Shown one piece after another: positions 35,375-43,858 of a DNA stretch of 58,469 bases. Position 1 is the stretch's first letter. The number at the start of each line of letters is the position of its first letter. A model generated the notes under the pieces. It did not search any database and was not told the DNA's origin. It saw only the letters and a program-made list of their open reading frames with translations. The translations under genes were made by a program, and so were the position numbers. The stretch is from Thermoanaerobaculia bacterium (lineage in GTDB: Bacteria; Acidobacteriota; Thermoanaerobaculia; Multivoradales; JAGPDF01): NCBI GenBank assembly GCA_018057705.1, contig JAGPDF010000024.1, positions 1 through 58,469 on the forward strand, read 5' to 3'.

Positions 35375-36346
35375 ATGAGCGTCGAGCTGGAGCGTCACGA
35401 CTGGACGGTCGAGGAGATCCGCCGGATTCACGACCTGCCGCTGCCGGAGCTCGTCTTCCGCGCCCAGACGGTGCATCGCCGGCACCATGACCCCGACCGT
35501 GTCCAGATGTGCACGCTGCTGTCGATCAAGACCGGCGGCTGTCCGGAGGACTGCGCCTACTGCCCGCAGAGCGCCCATCACGAGACTGCGGTTGCCCGCC
35601 AGAAGCTCCTCGATCTGCCCGCCGTCCTCGCAGCGGCGGCCGCGGCGCGCGCCAACGGCTCGAGCCGTTTCTGCATGGGAGCGGCCTGGCGCGAAGTCCA
35701 CGACGGGCCGGATTTCGATCGCGTTCTGGAGATGGTGCGCGGCGTGGCGGAGCTCGGGCTGGAGGTTTGCTGCACCCTGGGGATGCTCAGCGCGTCCCAG
35801 GCCGAGCGCCTCGCCGATTCCGGCCTCACCGCCTACAACCACAATCTCGACAGCGGGCCCGAGTTCTACGACCGGATCGTGACGACTCGCACCTATGAGG
35901 ATCGCCTGGCGACGCTCGGCCGAGTGCGCGGCGCCGGAATCACGCTGTGCTGCGGCGGTATCGTCGGCATGGGCGAGTCGGTCGACGACCGGCTCGACAT
36001 GCTGCGCGTGCTCGCCGAGATGAACCCGCATCCCGAGTCCGTGCCGGTCAACGCCCTGGTCGCCGTCGCCGGCACGCCGCTCGCCGGACGGCCGGTGGTC
36101 GACGGCATCGAGATGGCGAGGATGATCGCGAGCGCCCGGATCGTCCTTCCCAGGAGCTTCGTGCGGCTCTCCGCCGGCCGTTCGGAGATGTCGGACGAGA
36201 CTCAGGCGCTCTGCCTGCTGGCCGGCGCGAACTCGATCTTCACCGGTGAGCAACTCCTGACGACGCCGAACCCGGGAGGAGACGCCGACGCCCGACTGTT
36301 TTCGAAACTCGGACTCGAGCCGCTCCCCCTGGCCTCCGGCACCTGA
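35375..36346 (+). CDS. bioB: Biotin synthase
   Basis: 323 aa. Radical-SAM enzyme inserting sulfur into dethiobiotin. The SAM cluster motif is CPEDCAYC (C-x3-C-x2-C); the auxiliary 2Fe-2S ligands are supplied by later Cys/Arg ([23 protein letters not shown]). First gene of bioB-bioF-bioD, with the biotin genes in pathway-related order. GAGGA precedes the ATG by 4 nt. No BirA operator could be recognised upstream. Confidence 0.97.
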
Positions 36347-36359
36347 GGCGGAAGAGCCG

Positions 36360-37595
36360 GTGAGCACTCTCGCAGACTGGCAGGACGGGCTGGCGCGCGG
36401 GCTCCGGCGGCTCGACGAGGAGGGGTTGCGCCGCCGCCCGAGCCTCGCCACTGGGATCGATTTCTGTTCGAACGACTATCTCGGATTCGGGCGCGACGGC
36501 GACCTCGCGCTCTCCCTCGCGCGGCGGATTCAGGCGGCCGCGACGGAGGCCCCGGAGGCCCTCTTTGCTCCGGCCTCGCGGCTGCTCAGCGGCGACACGG
36601 TGCTGCATCGCGAGATCGAGGCGCGGCTCGCCGGATTCAAGGGTACGGAGGCGGCGCTGCTCTTTCCGTCAGGCTACCAGGCGAACCTCGCGCTGCTGAC
36701 TTCGATCCTCGGTCCCGCCGATCGCGCCCTGTCCGACGAGCTCAATCACGCCAGCCTGATCGACGGACTGAAGCTCTCGGGCTGTCGCCGATGCGTGGTT
36801 CCGCATCTCGATCTCGCCGCCTACGAACGCCTCTTGGTTGAACCGTCGCACGGTGGCCGCACCGTCGTCGTCGTCGAGTCGCTTTTCAGCATGGACGGCG
36901 ACATGGCGCCGCTCGCGGCGCTCGAAGCACTCTGCGCGCGGCACGGCGCCTTGCTGATCGTCGACGACGCCCACGCCACCGGTCTCTACGGCGAAGATCG
37001 CGGATCGGGCCTGGTCGAGGCGCACCACCTCGAGCGCCGGGTGGCGGCGAGTGTGACGACCTTCGGCAAGGCGCTCGCGGTACAGGGGGCCTGCATCGCC
37101 GGTTCGCGTTCGCTCGTCGACTGGATCGTCAACCGCGCCAGGCCGTTCATCTTCTCGACCGCCGTCTCGCCGGTCCTTTTGCACGCCATCGCCGCGAGCC
37201 TCGACCGTCTCGCGGAGGTGCCCGGGCGCCGCGCTCCCGGAGAGGGGGCGGAAGGCGGCGTGCGCGGGCGTGCCGCCCGGTTGCGCCGGCGCCTGGCCGA
37301 GCAGGGCCTCGACGCCGGCGCCGGCGACAGCCCGATCGTTCCGGTCGTGCTCGGAAGCAACGCGCGGGCGTTGGCCGTGGCCGAGGCCGTGCGATCGGCG
37401 GGTTTCGACGTGCGGGCGGTGCGCCCGCCCACCGTGCCGGCAGGAACGGCCCGCCTGCGCCTGTCGGTGCACGCCGATCACAGCGAGGCCGAGATCGATG
37501 GACTGGCGGCGGCGATCGGGCGGGCGATCCGGCAGATGGGCGGGCCAGCAAACGGTCCATTGGGCGACCCACTCGGCGACCAGGTGCCGGCTTGA
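36360..37595 (+). CDS. bioF: 8-amino-7-oxononanoate synthase
   Basis: 411 aa, GTG start. PLP enzyme condensing pimeloyl-thioester with alanine. Pyridoxal lysine in TFGKALAVQG; IVDDAHATGLYG and the N-terminal FCSNDYLGFG are family motifs. A short Gly/Arg-rich insert (APGEGAEGGVRGR) sits near residue 290. It follows bioB by 13 bp; its stop overlaps the bioD TTG. Confidence 0.96.
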   Translation: MSTLADWQDGLARGLRRLDEEGLRRRPSLATGIDFCSNDYLGFGRDGDLALSLARRIQAAATEAPEALFAPASRLLSGDTVLHREIEARLAGFKGTEAALLFPSGYQANLALLTSILGPADRALSDELNHASLIDGLKLSGCRRCVVPHLDLAAYERLLVEPSHGGRTVVVVESLFSMDGDMAPLAALEALCARHGALLIVDDAHATGLYGEDRGSGLVEAHHLERRVAASVTTFGKALAVQGACIAGSRSLVDWIVNRARPFIFSTAVSPVLLHAIAASLDRLAEVPGRRAPGEGAEGGVRGRAARLRRRLAEQGLDAGAGDSPIVPVVLGSNARALAVAEAVRSAGFDVRAVRPPTVPAGTARLRLSVHADHSEAEIDGLAAAIGRAIRQMGGPANGPLGDPLGDQVPA

Positions 37596-38359
37596 GCCTC
37601 TTCGTCGCCGGCACCGACACGGGGGTGGGGAAGACGGTCGTCTCGGCCCTGCTTCTTTCGCGCTACGCCGCCGAGCTCGAGCTCGCGTACTGGAAGCCGA
37701 TCGCCAGCGGCGCGGGCGGACCGCAGCCGGAGCGCGATAGCTCGACGATCGCCAGCCTGGTGTCGCGCGCCGGTGTCGAAGTCGAGATCCGGCTCGAGAT
37801 GCACCTCCTGCGCGATCCGGTTTCACCCCATCTCGCCGCCCGCCGCGAGGGTGTCACCATCGACATCGACGAGATCGCTCGCGCCTGGGCGGACTGGCAG
37901 AGCGTCAGTCCCGAGCGCGGCGTCGTCATCGAGGGCGCCGGCGGCGTCATGGTTCCTCTGAACGAAAAGCAGAGGCTCGGCAGAGGGGGGGCAGTCTCGG
38001 GCGGCGGTGGCTACGCTGGTTCGCCCTTGGGGTCGGGACGGTCGGCTGGAGGGGAGCTGCTGATCGACCTCATGGCGCTGCTCGAGCTGCCGGTGCTGCT
38101 GGTCGCGCGCTCGACGCTGGGAACGATCAACCACACCCTGCTGACGCTCGACGCTCTGCACCGCCGCGGGATTCCGATCGCCGGCGTCGTCTTGAACGGC
38201 CCGGCCAACGACGAGAACCGGCAGGCGATCGAGTCCTACGGCGACGTCCAGGTGATCGCCACCGTCGAGCCGTTCGAGCTCACCTCCTCGAGCCTGTGCG
38301 CTGCCGCGGCCGCCTTCGACCCGGCCGGCGATCTGCGCCGCCATCTCCAGTATGCCTAG
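37592..38359 (+). CDS. bioD: Dethiobiotin synthetase
   Basis: 255 aa, TTG start overlapping the bioF stop. ATP-dependent ring closure of 7,8-diaminopelargonic acid. Walker A GTDTGVGKTVV, YWKPIASG, and EGAGGVMVPLNEK. Between that motif and LIDLMALLELPVLLVARS there is an insertion of about 25 Gly/Ser/Arg residues (about 131-155) not normal for BioD; it falls at a surface loop and is probably tolerated. Confidence 0.94.
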   Translation: MSLFVAGTDTGVGKTVVSALLLSRYAAELELAYWKPIASGAGGPQPERDSSTIASLVSRAGVEVEIRLEMHLLRDPVSPHLAARREGVTIDIDEIARAWADWQSVSPERGVVIEGAGGVMVPLNEKQRLGRGGAVSGGGGYAGSPLGSGRSAGGELLIDLMALLELPVLLVARSTLGTINHTLLTLDALHRRGIPIAGVVLNGPANDENRQAIESYGDVQVIATVEPFELTSSSLCAAAAAFDPAGDLRRHLQYA

Positions 38360-38370
38360 GCCGTAGCCGG

Positions 38371-38475
38371 GTAGGATGCGGTAAGCGAAGCGCACCGCAT
38401 CGGTCGCGTGACGTCGGAGGGGAGAGTGGATTCGGAACGCGATCGATGCGTTTCGCTGCGCTCAACGCATCCTAC
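38371..38475. repeat. 105-bp palindromic GTAG-type interspersed repeat, copy 2
   Basis: Begins GTAGGATGCGG and ends CGCATCCTAC. Reverse-complemented it lines up with copy 1 at 28768-28865 with a handful of substitutions and a 7-bp difference in the centre. Lies between bioD and bioA. Confidence 0.8.
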
Positions 38476-38577
38476 ATTTCCCTATTTTCTGGGAGAACGT
38501 GACAAGGTTCCAGGGATGTCCTTCGTGAGCCACATTTCGAGCCCAGCGGGCGCCGGCGCCGGCGATCATCGAGCGCG

Positions 38578-39924
38578 ATGAAGGCGCCAGGACCCTCGCC
38601 CGACTGGCTCGCCCTGGACCGGGCACACGTCTGGCATCCCTACACCCAGATGCAGACCGCTCCGCCGGCGCTGCCGGTGGTGCGTGCCGAAGGCGTCTGG
38701 CTGGAGCTCGCCGACGGCCGGCGCGTTCTCGACGGCATCTCGTCCTGGTGGGTCAATCTCTTCGGCCACAACCATCCCCGACTGAACGCGGCTCTGGCGG
38801 CTCAGGCGGCCGCGCTCGAACAGGTGATTTTCGCCGGTTTCACCCACGAGCCCGCCGCGCGCCTGGCCGCCGAGCTCGTCGCTCTCGCCCCTGCCGGCCT
38901 CTCGCGGGTCTTCTATTCCGATGACGGCTCGACAGCGGTCGAGGTCGCGATGAAGATGGCGATCCAGCAGTGGCGGCAGCGCGGCGAGGCGCGGCGCCGT
39001 ATCTTCGTCGGGCTCGACCACGCCTACCACGGTGATACTTTCGGCGCGATGGCCGCGGGCGGCGACCCGGTCTTCCACCGCGGCTTCGCGGACCTGCTGT
39101 GCGAGGTCCTGCGGGCGCCGGTGCCGGCCTGCGAGAGCGAAGTGGCCGCGGCGCTCGCGGCGCTCGACGTGCTTCTCGAGCGTGCAGGCGACGAGGTCGC
39201 CGCGGTCATCGTCGAGCCGATCGTGCAGGGGGCCGGCGGCATGCGGCTCCATCCCTCCTCTTTCCTGCGCGGCGTACGCGAAGCGACCCGGGCACGCGGA
39301 CTGCCGCTCATCGCCGACGAGATCTTCACCGGCTTCGGCCGCACGGGGAGGATGTTCGCCTGCGAGCACGCCGGCGTTGCCCCGGATCTGCTCTGTCTTT
39401 CGAAGGGGCTCACGGGCGGCTACCTGCCGCTCGCGGCGACGCTCGCCACCGAGGAGATCTACTCCGCCTTCCTCTCGGCCGAGCGCGGGCGCGCCTTCTT
39501 CCACGGCCATTCCTACACCGGAAACGCGCTCGCCTGCGCCGTGGCACGCGCCAGTCTCGCTCTCTTCGACGAGACGAACTGCCTCCACCGTGTCGCCGAG
39601 CTGCAGCGTCTGTTCTCGCGGCGTCTGGCGGTCATCCAGGCGCTCCCCGGCGTGGCGCGGGTCCGCGGCCTCGGCGCGCTGGCGGTGGTCGAGCTCGAGG
39701 CGCCCGCGGCCGACCGCGAGTCCGGCTATCTCGACGCCCGGGGGCCGCGACTCGCGCAGGAGTTCCTCGACCGCGGGGTGCTCCTGCGACCGCTCGGCAA
39801 CGTGATCTATTTCCTGCCGCCCTACGCGATCACCGACGACGAGTGCCACCTCGTCTTCGATGTCGTGGAGGAGACCCTGCTCGGCTCCCGCCTGCCTGGC
39901 TCCCGTAGAATGACCGCGCGATGA
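38578..39924 (+). CDS. bioA: Adenosylmethionine-8-amino-7-oxononanoate aminotransferase
   Basis: 448 aa. PLP enzyme giving 7,8-diaminopelargonate with SAM as amino donor. HVWHPYTQM at the N-terminus is the BioA hallmark; the pyridoxal lysine is in CLSKGLTGGYLP. ISSWWVNLFGHNHP is conserved. Separated from bioD by 218 bp containing a repeat, so it may have its own promoter. The stop overlaps the PTPS start (ATGA). Confidence 0.95.
   Translation: MKAPGPSPDWLALDRAHVWHPYTQMQTAPPALPVVRAEGVWLELADGRRVLDGISSWWVNLFGHNHPRLNAALAAQAAALEQVIFAGFTHEPAARLAAELVALAPAGLSRVFYSDDGSTAVEVAMKMAIQQWRQRGEARRRIFVGLDHAYHGDTFGAMAAGGDPVFHRGFADLLCEVLRAPVPACESEVAAALAALDVLLERAGDEVAAVIVEPIVQGAGGMRLHPSSFLRGVREATRARGLPLIADEIFTGFGRTGRMFACEHAGVAPDLLCLSKGLTGGYLPLAATLATEEIYSAFLSAERGRAFFHGHSYTGNALACAVARASLALFDETNCLHRVAELQRLFSRRLAVIQALPGVARVRGLGALAVVELEAPAADRESGYLDARGPRLAQEFLDRGVLLRPLGNVIYFLPPYAITDDECHLVFDVVEETLLGSRLPGSRRMTAR
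39906..39911 (+). promoter_or_regulatory. Putative intragenic leaderless -10 box TAGAAT
   Basis: TAGAAT in the 3' end of bioA, 9 nt before the PTPS ATG (39921); could give an independent PTPS transcript. Confidence 0.35.
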
Positions 39925-40454
39925 CCCCGACCTTCTCGATCCGCCTCGCCAAGGAGGACTTCAAGTTCTCCGTCGCGCACTTCACGATCTTCGGACCCGG
40001 GCACGCCGAGCCGTTGCACGGCCACAACTACCGCCTCGCTCTCGAAGTGGAGGGCGAGGCCGTCGACGAGCTCGGCCTGCTGGCCGACTGCGCGCGGCTG
40101 AAGCGCGCCGCCCGCGCCGCTTGCGCCGCGCTCGACGACCGGCTGCTGCTTCCCGAATCGAGTCCGCATCTGGCCATCGGCAGATCGGGTGGAGAGACCT
40201 CCGGCAAGCCAGGCGGCACGATCGCGGTCCGTTTCGCCGAGCGTGAGTATCGCTTCCCGGCGGACGAGGTGCTCCTCCTGCCGCTCGCCAACGTCACGAT
40301 GGAGCTCCTGGCCCGGTGGGCCTGGGAGCGCCTGGCGAAAGTCGCCAGGGGCGGCGCGGTCCGCAGCCTGATGATCGAGATCGAGGAGACCCCCGGACAG
40401 CTCTGTCGCTACCGCGCCGCGCTCGCGGCCCCCCGCCGAGCCGCCGGCTCCTAG
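39921..40454 (+). CDS. 6-pyruvoyl-tetrahydropterin synthase family protein, PTPS-III-like
   Basis: 177 aa. Zinc ligands His20, His33 and His35 (FSVAHF and PLHGHNY) are present. The catalytic Cys usually four residues before HGH is absent: the sequence is HAEPLHGH, with Glu30 three residues before. Glu in that position characterises PTPS-III enzymes, which convert dihydroneopterin triphosphate to 6-hydroxymethyldihydropterin and can replace FolB in folate synthesis. folE lies 2.8 kb downstream. Coupled to bioA by a 4-bp overlap. Substrate is inferred, not shown. Confidence 0.75.
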   Translation: MTPTFSIRLAKEDFKFSVAHFTIFGPGHAEPLHGHNYRLALEVEGEAVDELGLLADCARLKRAARAACAALDDRLLLPESSPHLAIGRSGGETSGKPGGTIAVRFAEREYRFPADEVLLLPLANVTMELLARWAWERLAKVARGGAVRSLMIEIEETPGQLCRYRAALAAPRRAAGS

Positions 40455-40460
40455 TTCTGC

Positions 40461-41585
40461 CTATCTCTGGATCCGAATCTCCCGACCCCGCCACGAAGCC
40501 GCCTTGCCGCGAAAGCGATCGAGCGTCGCGAGCCCAAGGGTTGCAGCGAGCAAGAGAACATCGAGAGGGAAAAAGGCTCCAGTAAAGGGATTGGTGCCGG
40601 AGCTCTTGCGAGTCGCTGCGGATGCGGCGGTACCTCCCAGCCAGCAGACCGCCAGGGCCGGAACATCGCGCCGCGCCATGGCGGCGACGAGAAGGGCGAG
40701 GGTGGCGAGCGGCAGGGCGATGGCGGCCGCCGCCGCGGCCGGGCGCGCGGCCACGAAGAGGGCGAAGTTCCTTCGCCAGCCGCGAAATGTCGCCCTGGCA
40801 CCGCTGTACATACGGACAGTCAGGGCGTCTCCAGCGCGGCGAAAGCCGACTTTGAATCCTTGGGCGTGCAGTTGGCGCGCCAGCGCCACATCGTCGAGCG
40901 CGTCGCCGGCGATCGCCGCGAAGCCTCCGATCGCCCGCAGGGCTTCGGTCCTGAGCAGGAAGTACTGGCCGTTGGCGATCGGCGTCGGGCCGAGGCCTCT
41001 GGCGTAAGGCCGCCAGTCGCCGAGCATCCGGTCGAGCAGCGCGTAGGCCGCCGGGGTGAGCAGGGACTCGCCGAGGCCGTCCGTCGCTTGCCTACCGGAG
41101 AGCGATAGGGCGTCGAGGCGATGCTCGGCGGCAGCGGCGTGCGCCCGGGCGAGGAGCTCCGGCTGGTGGCGCGTATCGGCGTCGGTGAGCAGGATCCAGG
41201 GGGTGGCGACACCCTCCAGGCCGGTCGAGAGAGCGTTGACCTTGCCGCCCCATCCGGTGGCGAGCGGCCGCGCGCGGAGCGCCGTCAGGCGGGGCTCGCG
41301 GCCGGCCAGTCCGGCAAGGATCTCCGGGGTGCGGTCGGTCGATCCGTCGTCGATGATGCGCAGGGCGGGGGCTCCCTGCTGGGCGAGGAGGGTCGCCGCG
41401 CACTCGGCCAGGTTCGCCTGCTCGTCGCGCACCGGCAGCAGGACGGTCGTCGCGGGGAGCTCGGCGAGGGGCGGAGGGAGCGGAGGGGCTCGCCGCCGGT
41501 CGCGCACCACTCGCAGCGCGAGGACGACCCAGGCCGCCGCGAGCGCCGCGCCGAGGAGCGTGCCCCCGTGGCTCGCGAGGCTCAA
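40461..41585 (-). CDS. Family 2 glycosyltransferase, membrane-anchored
   Basis: 374 aa, TTG start overlapping the SelW stop. N-terminal membrane helix (about 9-27), GT-A catalytic domain with IIDDGSTDRTPEIL, LTDADTRH and DALDDVALARQL, then three C-terminal hydrophobic segments. The layout resembles hopanoid- or carotenoid-associated GT2 proteins (HpnB/CrtQ-like); the acceptor is unknown. Third gene of the methyltransferase-SelW-GT2 operon. Confidence 0.82.
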   Translation of the reverse strand: MSLASHGGTLLGAALAAAWVVLALRVVRDRRRAPPLPPPLAELPATTVLLPVRDEQANLAECAATLLAQQGAPALRIIDDGSTDRTPEILAGLAGREPRLTALRARPLATGWGGKVNALSTGLEGVATPWILLTDADTRHQPELLARAHAAAAEHRLDALSLSGRQATDGLGESLLTPAAYALLDRMLGDWRPYARGLGPTPIANGQYFLLRTEALRAIGGFAAIAGDALDDVALARQLHAQGFKVGFRRAGDALTVRMYSGARATFRGWRRNFALFVAARPAAAAAAIALPLATLALLVAAMARRDVPALAVCWLGGTAASAATRKSSGTNPFTGAFFPLDVLLLAATLGLATLDRFRGKAASWRGREIRIQR

Positions 41586-41821
41586 CCGGCTGGGGGCAGG
41601 CGGGCGGCGAGCAGGTCGGCGACTTCAGCGGTCGAGGGGAAGCGCCCGGCCTCCTTCTTCGAGAACAGCAGCTCGCCGTCGAGGGAAACTTCGAAGACGC
41701 CGCCGCGGCTCTTGATCAGGGTCGGCTGCAGGCCGAACTGCGCTTCGATGTCAGCCGCCAGACCGGCGGCTCGAGGGGCGTAGTTTCAAACCACGCAATA
41801 TTCGATGGTGATCGTGGACAT
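41582..41821 (-). CDS. SelW-like (Rdx family) selenoprotein, in-frame TGA = Sec12
   Basis: 79 aa when TGA at 41786-41788 is read as selenocysteine. The N-terminus MSTITIEYCVV-U-NYAPRA gives the C-x-x-U redox motif (Cys9, Sec12) right after the first beta strand, as in the SelW/SelT/SelH thioredoxin-like family; the remainder (LIKSRGGVFEVSLDGELLFS, FPSTAEV) is the Rdx core. Cys-containing relatives have YCxxC here. A strong SECIS-like hairpin follows. The ATG abuts the methyltransferase stop with no gap and the TGA stop overlaps the GT2 TTG, so the gene is embedded in an operon. SelW proteins are thiol-dependent antioxidants or redox partners; the partner here is unknown. Confidence 0.88.
41753..41788 (-). 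promoter_or_regulatory. bSECIS-like hairpin after Sec TGA of SelW gene
   Basis: TGA, 14 nt, stem AGCCGCC, loop GGTCT, stem GGCGGCT: seven perfect pairs, a 5-nt loop with G at positions 1 and 2, loop starting 21 nt after the TGA. This matches bacterial SECIS geometry closely. Confidence 0.8.
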
Positions 41822-43042
41822 TCAGGCTCCTGGACTCGGAATCGGCCGCTCGGCCGGAGGACGGCGGGCGCAGAGGGCGCCGGAGAAGAATCGCGGGTAG
41901 TGCTCACGGATGCGGGCCAGATCGGGCACTTCTGCGAGCGCCGCGAAACCGGTCGCGGCCAGCGCCTGGCGCCACTCCTCCGGGGTGAGGAAACCGTGCG
42001 AGCTGCGCACGTCCCGGTCGAGCTTCACCTGGGTGAAGCTCGCGAGCTGCTCGAAGATCAGCTCGATCGGAATCGTCTGCCGCGGGAAGAGTCGCTGGCA
42101 CTCGCCGGCGACGAGCCAGCCGCCCGGGACGAGCAGCGAGCGCAACCAGGCGAGGCTGGCGCCCAGGTCCTGGGCGATGTGCAGGACGTTGACCGCGAAG
42201 ACGAGGTCGAAGCCCGCTTGCGGAAGACCCTGGGCGGAGGGGTCCTGATCGATGTCGTAGGCCTGGTCGACGAGCGCGAGCCCCGGATAGCGGGCGGCCA
42301 GGGCACGGCTCGCGCGCCGCCGCAGCATCGGGTTCGGCTCGGTCAGCCGGTACTCGGCGACCTCGCCGATGCGGCCGCGCTCCCGGAGCTCGTCGAGCAG
42401 AGCCTCGGCGGCGCTGCCGGCACCGGCACCGATCTCGAGAATCCGGACCGGACCGCCCGCAGGCAGGCGATTCGCGGCAGCGATCGCCGCCAGCCTGTTG
42501 TTCAGGGCGTAGATCGGATTGGCGTTGTGGAAGTACTGGGTCCACAGCTGCATGCTGGCGCCGGTGAAGAGAGCCTGCTCGCCGGTCAGGGCACCTGCCA
42601 GGACTCGGGGAAAAGCCTCGCCTGCGGTGTCGAGGATCGCCAGCGTCGGCGCGATGGCCGGGTCGATGGCGAGCCCAAGGGCGCGCAGCTCGCCGAGCTC
42701 GGGGGTGGGCAGGGGCCGCCGCAGCCGGTAGGCCGGGCCGGGCTCTTCCGGGGAGCGTTCGAGGTGGCCGGCTTCGGCGAGACGGGCGAGCAGCCAGTCG
42801 AGCGCAGGGCTCTCGTCCTCCGGGTAGCTGCGGGAGCGGAGGATCGCCTGCGCCGTCGTCCCTTGTGCGAGGTCCGGCTCGAGCTCGAGCCGCTGCGCGA
42901 TGGCGATGGCCAGGTCGGAGACGTAGCGTTCGACGAGCTCGCAGGCCTGGTAGAGCCGCTCGGAGAAGAGCTCGCGTGGCACCTCGCCGAGCAGGTCGTC
43001 CACCGCGGGGTTGCGCGGCGGGGGGAGGAAGGGCACGAGCAC
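41822..43042 (-). CDS. Class I SAM-dependent methyltransferase (PKS-MT-like)
   Basis: 406 aa from GTG 43042; ATG 43051 (409 aa) is the other choice but overlaps the TAGAAT box itself, whereas GTG 43042 lies 7 nt after it. Residues about 40-115 form a helical/winged-helix-like N-domain; the SAM domain has VRILEIGAGAGSAAEALL, VAEYRLTEPNP, FDLVFAVNVLHIAQD. The GASMQLWTQYFHNANPIYALNN segment resembles methyltransferase domains of polyketide synthases. Substrate unknown. First gene of the operon with SelW and GT2, joined without intergenic space. Confidence 0.82.
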   Translation of the reverse strand: MLVPFLPPPRNPAVDDLLGEVPRELFSERLYQACELVERYVSDLAIAIAQRLELEPDLAQGTTAQAILRSRSYPEDESPALDWLLARLAEAGHLERSPEEPGPAYRLRRPLPTPELGELRALGLAIDPAIAPTLAILDTAGEAFPRVLAGALTGEQALFTGASMQLWTQYFHNANPIYALNNRLAAIAAANRLPAGGPVRILEIGAGAGSAAEALLDELRERGRIGEVAEYRLTEPNPMLRRRASRALAARYPGLALVDQAYDIDQDPSAQGLPQAGFDLVFAVNVLHIAQDLGASLAWLRSLLVPGGWLVAGECQRLFPRQTIPIELIFEQLASFTQVKLDRDVRSSHGFLTPEEWRQALAATGFAALAEVPDLARIREHYPRFFSGALCARRPPAERPIPSPGA

Positions 43043-43049
43043 GCGCAGC

Positions 43050-43055
43050 ATTCTA
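43050..43055 (-). promoter_or_regulatory. Putative leaderless -10 box TAGAAT
   Basis: TAGAAT, 7 nt before GTG 43042; drives the methyltransferase-SelW-GT2 operon. Confidence 0.45.
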
Positions 43056-43184: not shown

Positions 43185-43233
43185 CCTGGGGAACGGGAGC
43201 TGCGCCGAATCGATTCGGGCCGGCGCGCTGGGT

Positions 43234-43239
43234 TAGGAT
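43234..43239 (+). promoter_or_regulatory. Putative leaderless -10 box TAGGAT
   Basis: TAGGAT, 7 nt before the folE ATG (43247). Confidence 0.4.
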
Positions 43240-43246
43240 CCCGGGG

Positions 43247-43858
43247 ATGAGCGAGAAGAAGCCGCAAGAGAGTGCCGCCGCGACCGCGGACCTCGCCGAG
43301 GATGCCCGGGTCGGGCGCATTGCACACCATGTGCGCGGGATGTTGGCCGAGCTCGGTCTCGATCTCACGGACCACAATCTGCGCGACACCGACCGCCGCG
43401 TCGCCAAGATGTATCTCGAGATGTTCCGCGGGCTCGAGGAGGGCGCCGAACCCAAGGTCACGACCTTCCCCAACGACGAGCATTACAGCGCGATGGTCAT
43501 GGAGAAGCAGATCCCGTTCTACTCCATGTGCGCCCATCACCTCGTGCCGTTCTACGGTCACGCCCATCTAGCCTACATCCCGAACGACACCATCCTCGGG
43601 CTCTCGAAGTTCGCCCGGATTCTCGAGTTCTACGCCAAGCGGCCGCAGCTTCAGGAGCGGCTGACCGAGCAGGTGGCCAACTACCTCGAGACCCGACTGA
43701 AGCCGCAGGGCGTCATGGTCGTCATCGAGGCCCGGCATCTCTGCGTCGAGATGCGCGGCGTCAAGAAGCCGGGAGCGATGACTGTGACCTCGGCGATCCG
43801 CGGCACGTTCTACCAGAAGCCGGTCCGGGAGGAGTTCCTCGACCTGCTTCGGCACTGA
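43247..43858 (+). CDS. folE: GTP cyclohydrolase I
   Basis: 203 aa. Converts GTP to 7,8-dihydroneopterin triphosphate, the first step of folate/pterin synthesis. Zinc ligands in FYSMCAHHLVPF and IEARHLCVEMRG, catalytic His in CAHH. The ATG at 43247 is supported by TAGGAT 7 nt upstream; the longer frame runs into the palindrome. It probably supplies the PTPS-III-like enzyme at 39921. Confidence 0.96.
   Translation: MSEKKPQESAAATADLAEDARVGRIAHHVRGMLAELGLDLTDHNLRDTDRRVAKMYLEMFRGLEEGAEPKVTTFPNDEHYSAMVMEKQIPFYSMCAHHLVPFYGHAHLAYIPNDTILGLSKFARILEFYAKRPQLQERLTEQVANYLETRLKPQGVMVVIEARHLCVEMRGVKKPGAMTVTSAIRGTFYQKPVREEFLDLLRH

Follow-up and report, generated by a model that had tools for sequence, protein, structure and literature searches.

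What does the in-frame TGA at codon 12 of a short acidobacterial reading frame stand for? The window, that is, the whole stretch of 58,469 nucleotides analysed here (contig JAGPDF010000024.1 of a Thermoanaerobaculia bacterium), contains a small minus-strand frame whose predicted product reads MSTITIEYCVVUNYAPRAAGLAADIEAQFGLQPTLIKSRGGVFEVSLDGELLFSKKEAGRFPSTAEVADLLAARLPPAG. An earlier note, made from the letters alone and giving no strand, took it for a hidden SelW-like selenoprotein gene, and on re-reading the frame its coordinates, its 79 codons and the positions of Cys9 and Sec12 are correct (Table 1). We propose, with a probability of about 0.96, that the window gene truly encodes a selenoprotein, one of the bacterial SelW-like (Rdx) family, the internal UGA being almost certainly read as selenocysteine. 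Gene calling that goes by stop codons would lose this gene, which the analysis confirms.

Table 1. Positions of the selW-like gene, its elements and neighbours in the window, and of fdhA elsewhere in the genome.
Feature	Position	Strand	Basis
PTPS-family gene, convergent neighbour of the selW operon	39921..40454	+	Pfam PTPS, 78.9 bits
GT2 glycosyltransferase gene, downstream of selW	40461..41585	-	Pfam Glycos_transf_2
selW-like gene, 79 codons and stop	41582..41821	-	Pfam, NCBIfam, AlphaFold2, Foldseek
selW terminal stop, likewise TGA	41584-41582	-	
bSECIS hairpin, 7-bp stem, loop GGUCU	41753..41771	-	folding, covariation, likeness to fdhA
Codon 12, putative Sec codon UGA, for the later redox residue of CxxU	41786..41788	-	
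Cys9 codon TGC, other redox residue of CxxU	41795..41797	-	
selW start ATG	41821-41819	-	
SAM-dependent methyltransferase-like gene, upstream of selW	41822..43051	-	Pfam Methyltransf_12/23
folE (GTP cyclohydrolase I), next to the selW operon and divergent from it	43229..43855	+	TIGR00063, 227 bits, above cut-off
fdhA, formate dehydrogenase alpha	L085:850-2829, genome contig C138	-	TIGR01591

The frame was said to be coupled to its flanking genes, and this is what we find on both sides. The TGA of the methyltransferase gene (41824-41822) touches the selW ATG with zero gap, and the glycosyltransferase frame has a possible TTG start at 41585, the letters TTGA being common to it and to the selW stop; we infer that translation of the glycosyltransferase begins at this TTG. 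In a sister species (78% identity) the methyltransferase-selW-glycosyltransferase arrangement and its junctions are identical in kind, and the glycosyltransferase adjoins selW elsewhere in the same genus, as well as in loci of two families, f1 and f6. Since no ORF of at least 60 aa is listed in the selW frame, an ordinary gene caller would miss the gene. To that extent the statement that no ordinary gene call finds it holds, but the NCBIfam model NF041051 exists, and with curated models and a published family the gene is not beyond current annotation knowledge.

Alignment with PF10262, which the earlier note had proposed as a check, gives a full-length Rdx match above the curated cut-off (72.7 bits against 22.6, E=2.9e-20, profile positions 1-72 of 74). 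The protein also scores 57.9 bits with TIGR02174 (cut-off 34.2) and passes the Campylobacter-named NF041051 with 90 bits (cut-off 88). The best Foldseek matches of its AlphaFold2 model (mean pLDDT 90.4) are the SelW-family structures 2fa8, 2obk and 3dex, with TM about 0.9. In this model the segment C9-V-V-U12 is predicted to follow a strand (residues 4-9) and to precede a helix (residues 15-29), as expected for the CxxU or CxxC of a thioredoxin-like protein, so that profile match and predicted structure together confirm the placement of CxxU as in the Rdx/SelW fold. Cys9 is invariant in the protein alignment. Chance falls far short of explaining an Rdx match whose UGA coincides exactly with the active-site residue.

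Is the internal UGA followed by an RNA signal for its decoding? Starting at the 15th nucleotide past the UGA is the hairpin AGCCGCC-GGUCU-GGCGGCU, which folds alone with -13.2 kcal/mol. Its 7-bp stem, its 5-nt loop starting with GG and the 21 nt between UGA and loop are all seen as first described, and they agree with the published bSECIS model (loop of 3-9 nt, stem of 4-16 bp, G in the first two loop positions, UGA 16-37 nt away, MFE of -7.5 or lower; PMC13188914). Nevertheless, the hairpin had been overrated as strong support, for by itself it is weak evidence in GC-rich DNA: against dinucleotide shuffles its z is -1.09, at least 7 bp form at the site in 8.8% of synonymous recodings, and 10.7% of the 1017 TGAs of the window pass a bSECIS-like rule at 7 bp (45% at 5 bp). 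Therefore, the bSECIS criteria are not specific. When a GGUCU or AGUYU loop is required, no site of the window other than selW reaches 5 bp. No Rfam family matches the hairpin, and a genome scan for SCCGGTCTGGS returned 60 matches, no excess over a reversed control (78). Thirty of the 60 were examined as loci, a set outside which the fdhA match (contig C138) falls, and among them only selW had a correctly spaced TGA and an open frame beyond.

Since the single-sequence and recoding nulls left the hairpin non-significant, a comparative test was used. Among 46 aligned relatives, 83.5% of the cells are paired against 78.6% after shuffling, and five of the seven pairs have changed on both sides against 2.0 in the shuffles; the aligned structure outdoes the shuffles on all measures (0/500 equal it), and the pairing becomes far poorer when slid by 1-3 columns. 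The codons of the loop are likewise constrained, Gly being written GGU in 25 of 26 cases against 54/288 (19%) elsewhere in the same genes (Fisher p=8e-16), and Ser being written AGU in 18 of 18 against 12/151 (8%; p=1e-16), although these p-values, like those for covariation, are inflated by the pooling of related sequences. In a wider set, GGU or AGU is the loop codon in 76 of 85 sequences; in about ten of these 85 the inner stem has a mismatch, for the most part in the form GCCUCC-AGUCU-GGCGGC. The support for the hairpin as a putative decoding signal comes from this comparative evidence; one sequence proves little.

A second selenoprotein gene of the same genome, fdhA, points in the same direction. 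The fdhA product finds in TIGR01591 (Fdh-alpha) its best model by far, with 608.8 bits, under the cut-off of 666. The gene has one in-frame TGA, at 2544-2542 of L085, in the motif CNRTUHAPSVAGLA, followed by the hairpin CGUCGCC-GGUCU-GGCGACG, with a 7-bp stem and 18 nt between UGA and loop. Thus, selW and fdhA have equal stem lengths and the identical GGUCU loop, and both write this loop via Ala-Gly-Leu (GCC GGU CUG). That two unrelated proteins have stem length and loop in common suggests that the RNA requirement of SelB may shape the protein sequence of both SelW and FdhA. Beside fdhA, judged by eye, lies a divergent FdhD-like frame.

Could the selW hairpin nevertheless be a by-product of a PRAAGLAA peptide written in GC-rich codons, with no role in decoding? 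GCC and GGC codons do pair easily, and the share of synonymous recodings that reach at least 7 bp speaks for such an origin. However, the U-ending loop codons are nearly fixed, yet not common in the rest of these genes; the pairs covary, as in GCAGCUAGUUUAGCUGC of relative L055 and CGCGAGUCUCGCG of relative L029; and the loop recurs unchanged in the unrelated fdhA. We therefore regard a by-product as very improbable.

Slightly less probable still is that the UGA is read not as selenocysteine but as an ordinary residue (Trp, Cys or Gly), by a reassigned code or by near-cognate suppression. UGA is the normal stop of selW itself and of the gene just upstream, a conserved and covarying hairpin lies 3′ of the internal UGA, and the genome has the genes for selenocysteine. 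Its draft assembly (5.08 Mb in 177 contigs, 96% complete) contains all that a bacterial selenoprotein requires, namely selA (441 bits), selB (326.9 bits combined), selD (337.2 bits) and a tRNA-Sec with anticodon UCA (68.4 bits); absence of selB or of tRNA-Sec had been named in advance as fatal to the selenoprotein reading, and all four genes sought are in the same genome. In related genomes, selA was detected in 114 of 119. Several of these (G074, G077, G083, G086, G089 and others) keep selA with no Rdx detected, so that in those genomes the Sec trait is maintained by something other than SelW.

How constant is the UGA itself? By profile search, an Rdx gene is present in 105 of the 119 related genomes, and each site-spanning copy has one in-frame TGA, with one match at a contig end holding a TAG besides; the lone match without a TGA is a fragment beginning past the site. 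Those copies of the relatives that were read as sequence all have the TGA at the CxxU position. In a sample of the phylum, Rdx occurs in 116 of 396 genomes, and those full-length forms without TGA that were read are of a distinct CTQCRWLLRAAW type. A homologue with neither Cys nor Sec at this site would have spoken against the earlier note, and the homologues examined all have one or the other. As judged from the codon at this site, wherever window-type SelW occurs among the genomes sampled from the acidobacterial class, it is of the Sec form. The idea that the TGA is a sequencing error, or a disabling change that turned an otherwise standard CxxC-type Rdx frame into a pseudogene, is the least probable of all and refuted already by comparative data, as the TGA stands at the same codon in well over 50 independent genomes, the protein is conserved before and after that codon, and among the 119 relatives this SelW subfamily was never seen in a Cys form.

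Second, more divergent Rdx copies occur in G013, G019, G021, G032, G034, G042, G067 and G082; they too have one in-frame TGA, and most span longer, 228-246 bp. Relatives were also looked for in plasmids, where the 22 records found are each below 60% identity, and in phages, where there were none.

We return, then, to selenocysteine as the reading of codon 12, to which the frame, the family, the predicted fold, the machinery genes, the conserved UGA and the covarying hairpin all point; what the earlier note had proposed about decoding is supported. On this reading, ribosomes would arrive at the UGA of codon 12, where SelB with Sec-tRNA-Sec would bind the hairpin, its GGUCU loop lying 21 nt downstream; Sec would be inserted, and translation would run on until the second UGA terminates it. 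The product would be a 79-residue thioredoxin-like protein, with Cys9-x-x-Sec12 as its probable thiol/selenol redox centre.

The family to which this protein belongs is not new. SelW-like selenoproteins of bacteria have been in the literature from 2005 onwards, when no other selenoprotein family was as abundant in the Sargasso Sea set (PMC1088965), and they appear in reviews of 2022 (PMC9312934) and 2026 (PMC13188914). Few or no Cys homologues of SelW-like proteins were reported in Sec-using organisms (Zhang et al. 2006, PMC1794560). The window protein has the fold, the CxxU and the length of this family (Rdx, PF10262; TIGR02174; NF041051), its gene has a SECIS downstream of the UGA as the family does, and nothing in it breaks the definition. 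What we did not find described in the SelW-like literature cited here is the acidobacterial host and the selW neighbourhood. An experimental parallel is Campylobacter jejuni SelW (CJnc60), likewise of about 80 aa, whose UGA is decoded as Sec and whose full-length read-through has been confirmed by Ribo-seq and mass spectrometry (PMC11955535); its translation is proven, where that of the window SelW is predicted, and its genomic context is another. Cys-type Rdx proteins (PDB 2fa8, 2obk, 3dex and 2p0g, and L059-L066 from the same phylum) have the same fold, but with CxxC, in L059-L066 within the CTQCRWLLRAAW motif, and no UGA, and constitute a separate subfamily. Vertebrate SELENOW also carries CxxU, and the eukaryotic SECIS sits in the 3′ UTR. 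Mouse SelW (PDB 2npb) belongs to the same superfamily, with lower similarity to the window protein (Foldseek TM 0.66).

What might such a protein do? The gene order of the window is bioB-bioF-bioD-bioA-PTPS, convergent with glycosyltransferase-selW-methyltransferase, which is followed by the divergent folE and a FabH-like gene. Of 36 loci from the host's order, 24 have a divergent folE within 2 kb of selW and 17 have a PTPS gene near selW; neither was seen near selW in 20 loci from other orders of the class. The position of the PTPS gene varies by family, being convergent downstream, codirectional downstream or upstream of selW, though always close by, and the window's PTPS-family protein scores under the QueD and 6PTHBS cut-offs. 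It is tempting to propose that SelW works with tetrahydropterin metabolism in the host's order, where it might protect or reduce the folE or PTPS enzymes or a pterin product, and this link, if true, would give bacterial SelW its first pathway; we consider it unlikely. The FabH-like and GWxTD genes past folE are also conserved (17 and 21 loci), and therefore part of the arrangement is an old syntenic block and a functional link is only a lead. The proximity of folE and PTPS to selW may, accordingly, be passive synteny. Nonetheless, the folE/PTPS neighbourhood offers a testable lead on the function of bacterial SelW. The PTPS-family gene is itself the end of a packed biotin set of Pfam-named genes, bioB, bioF, bioD and bioA, at window positions 35375-40454.
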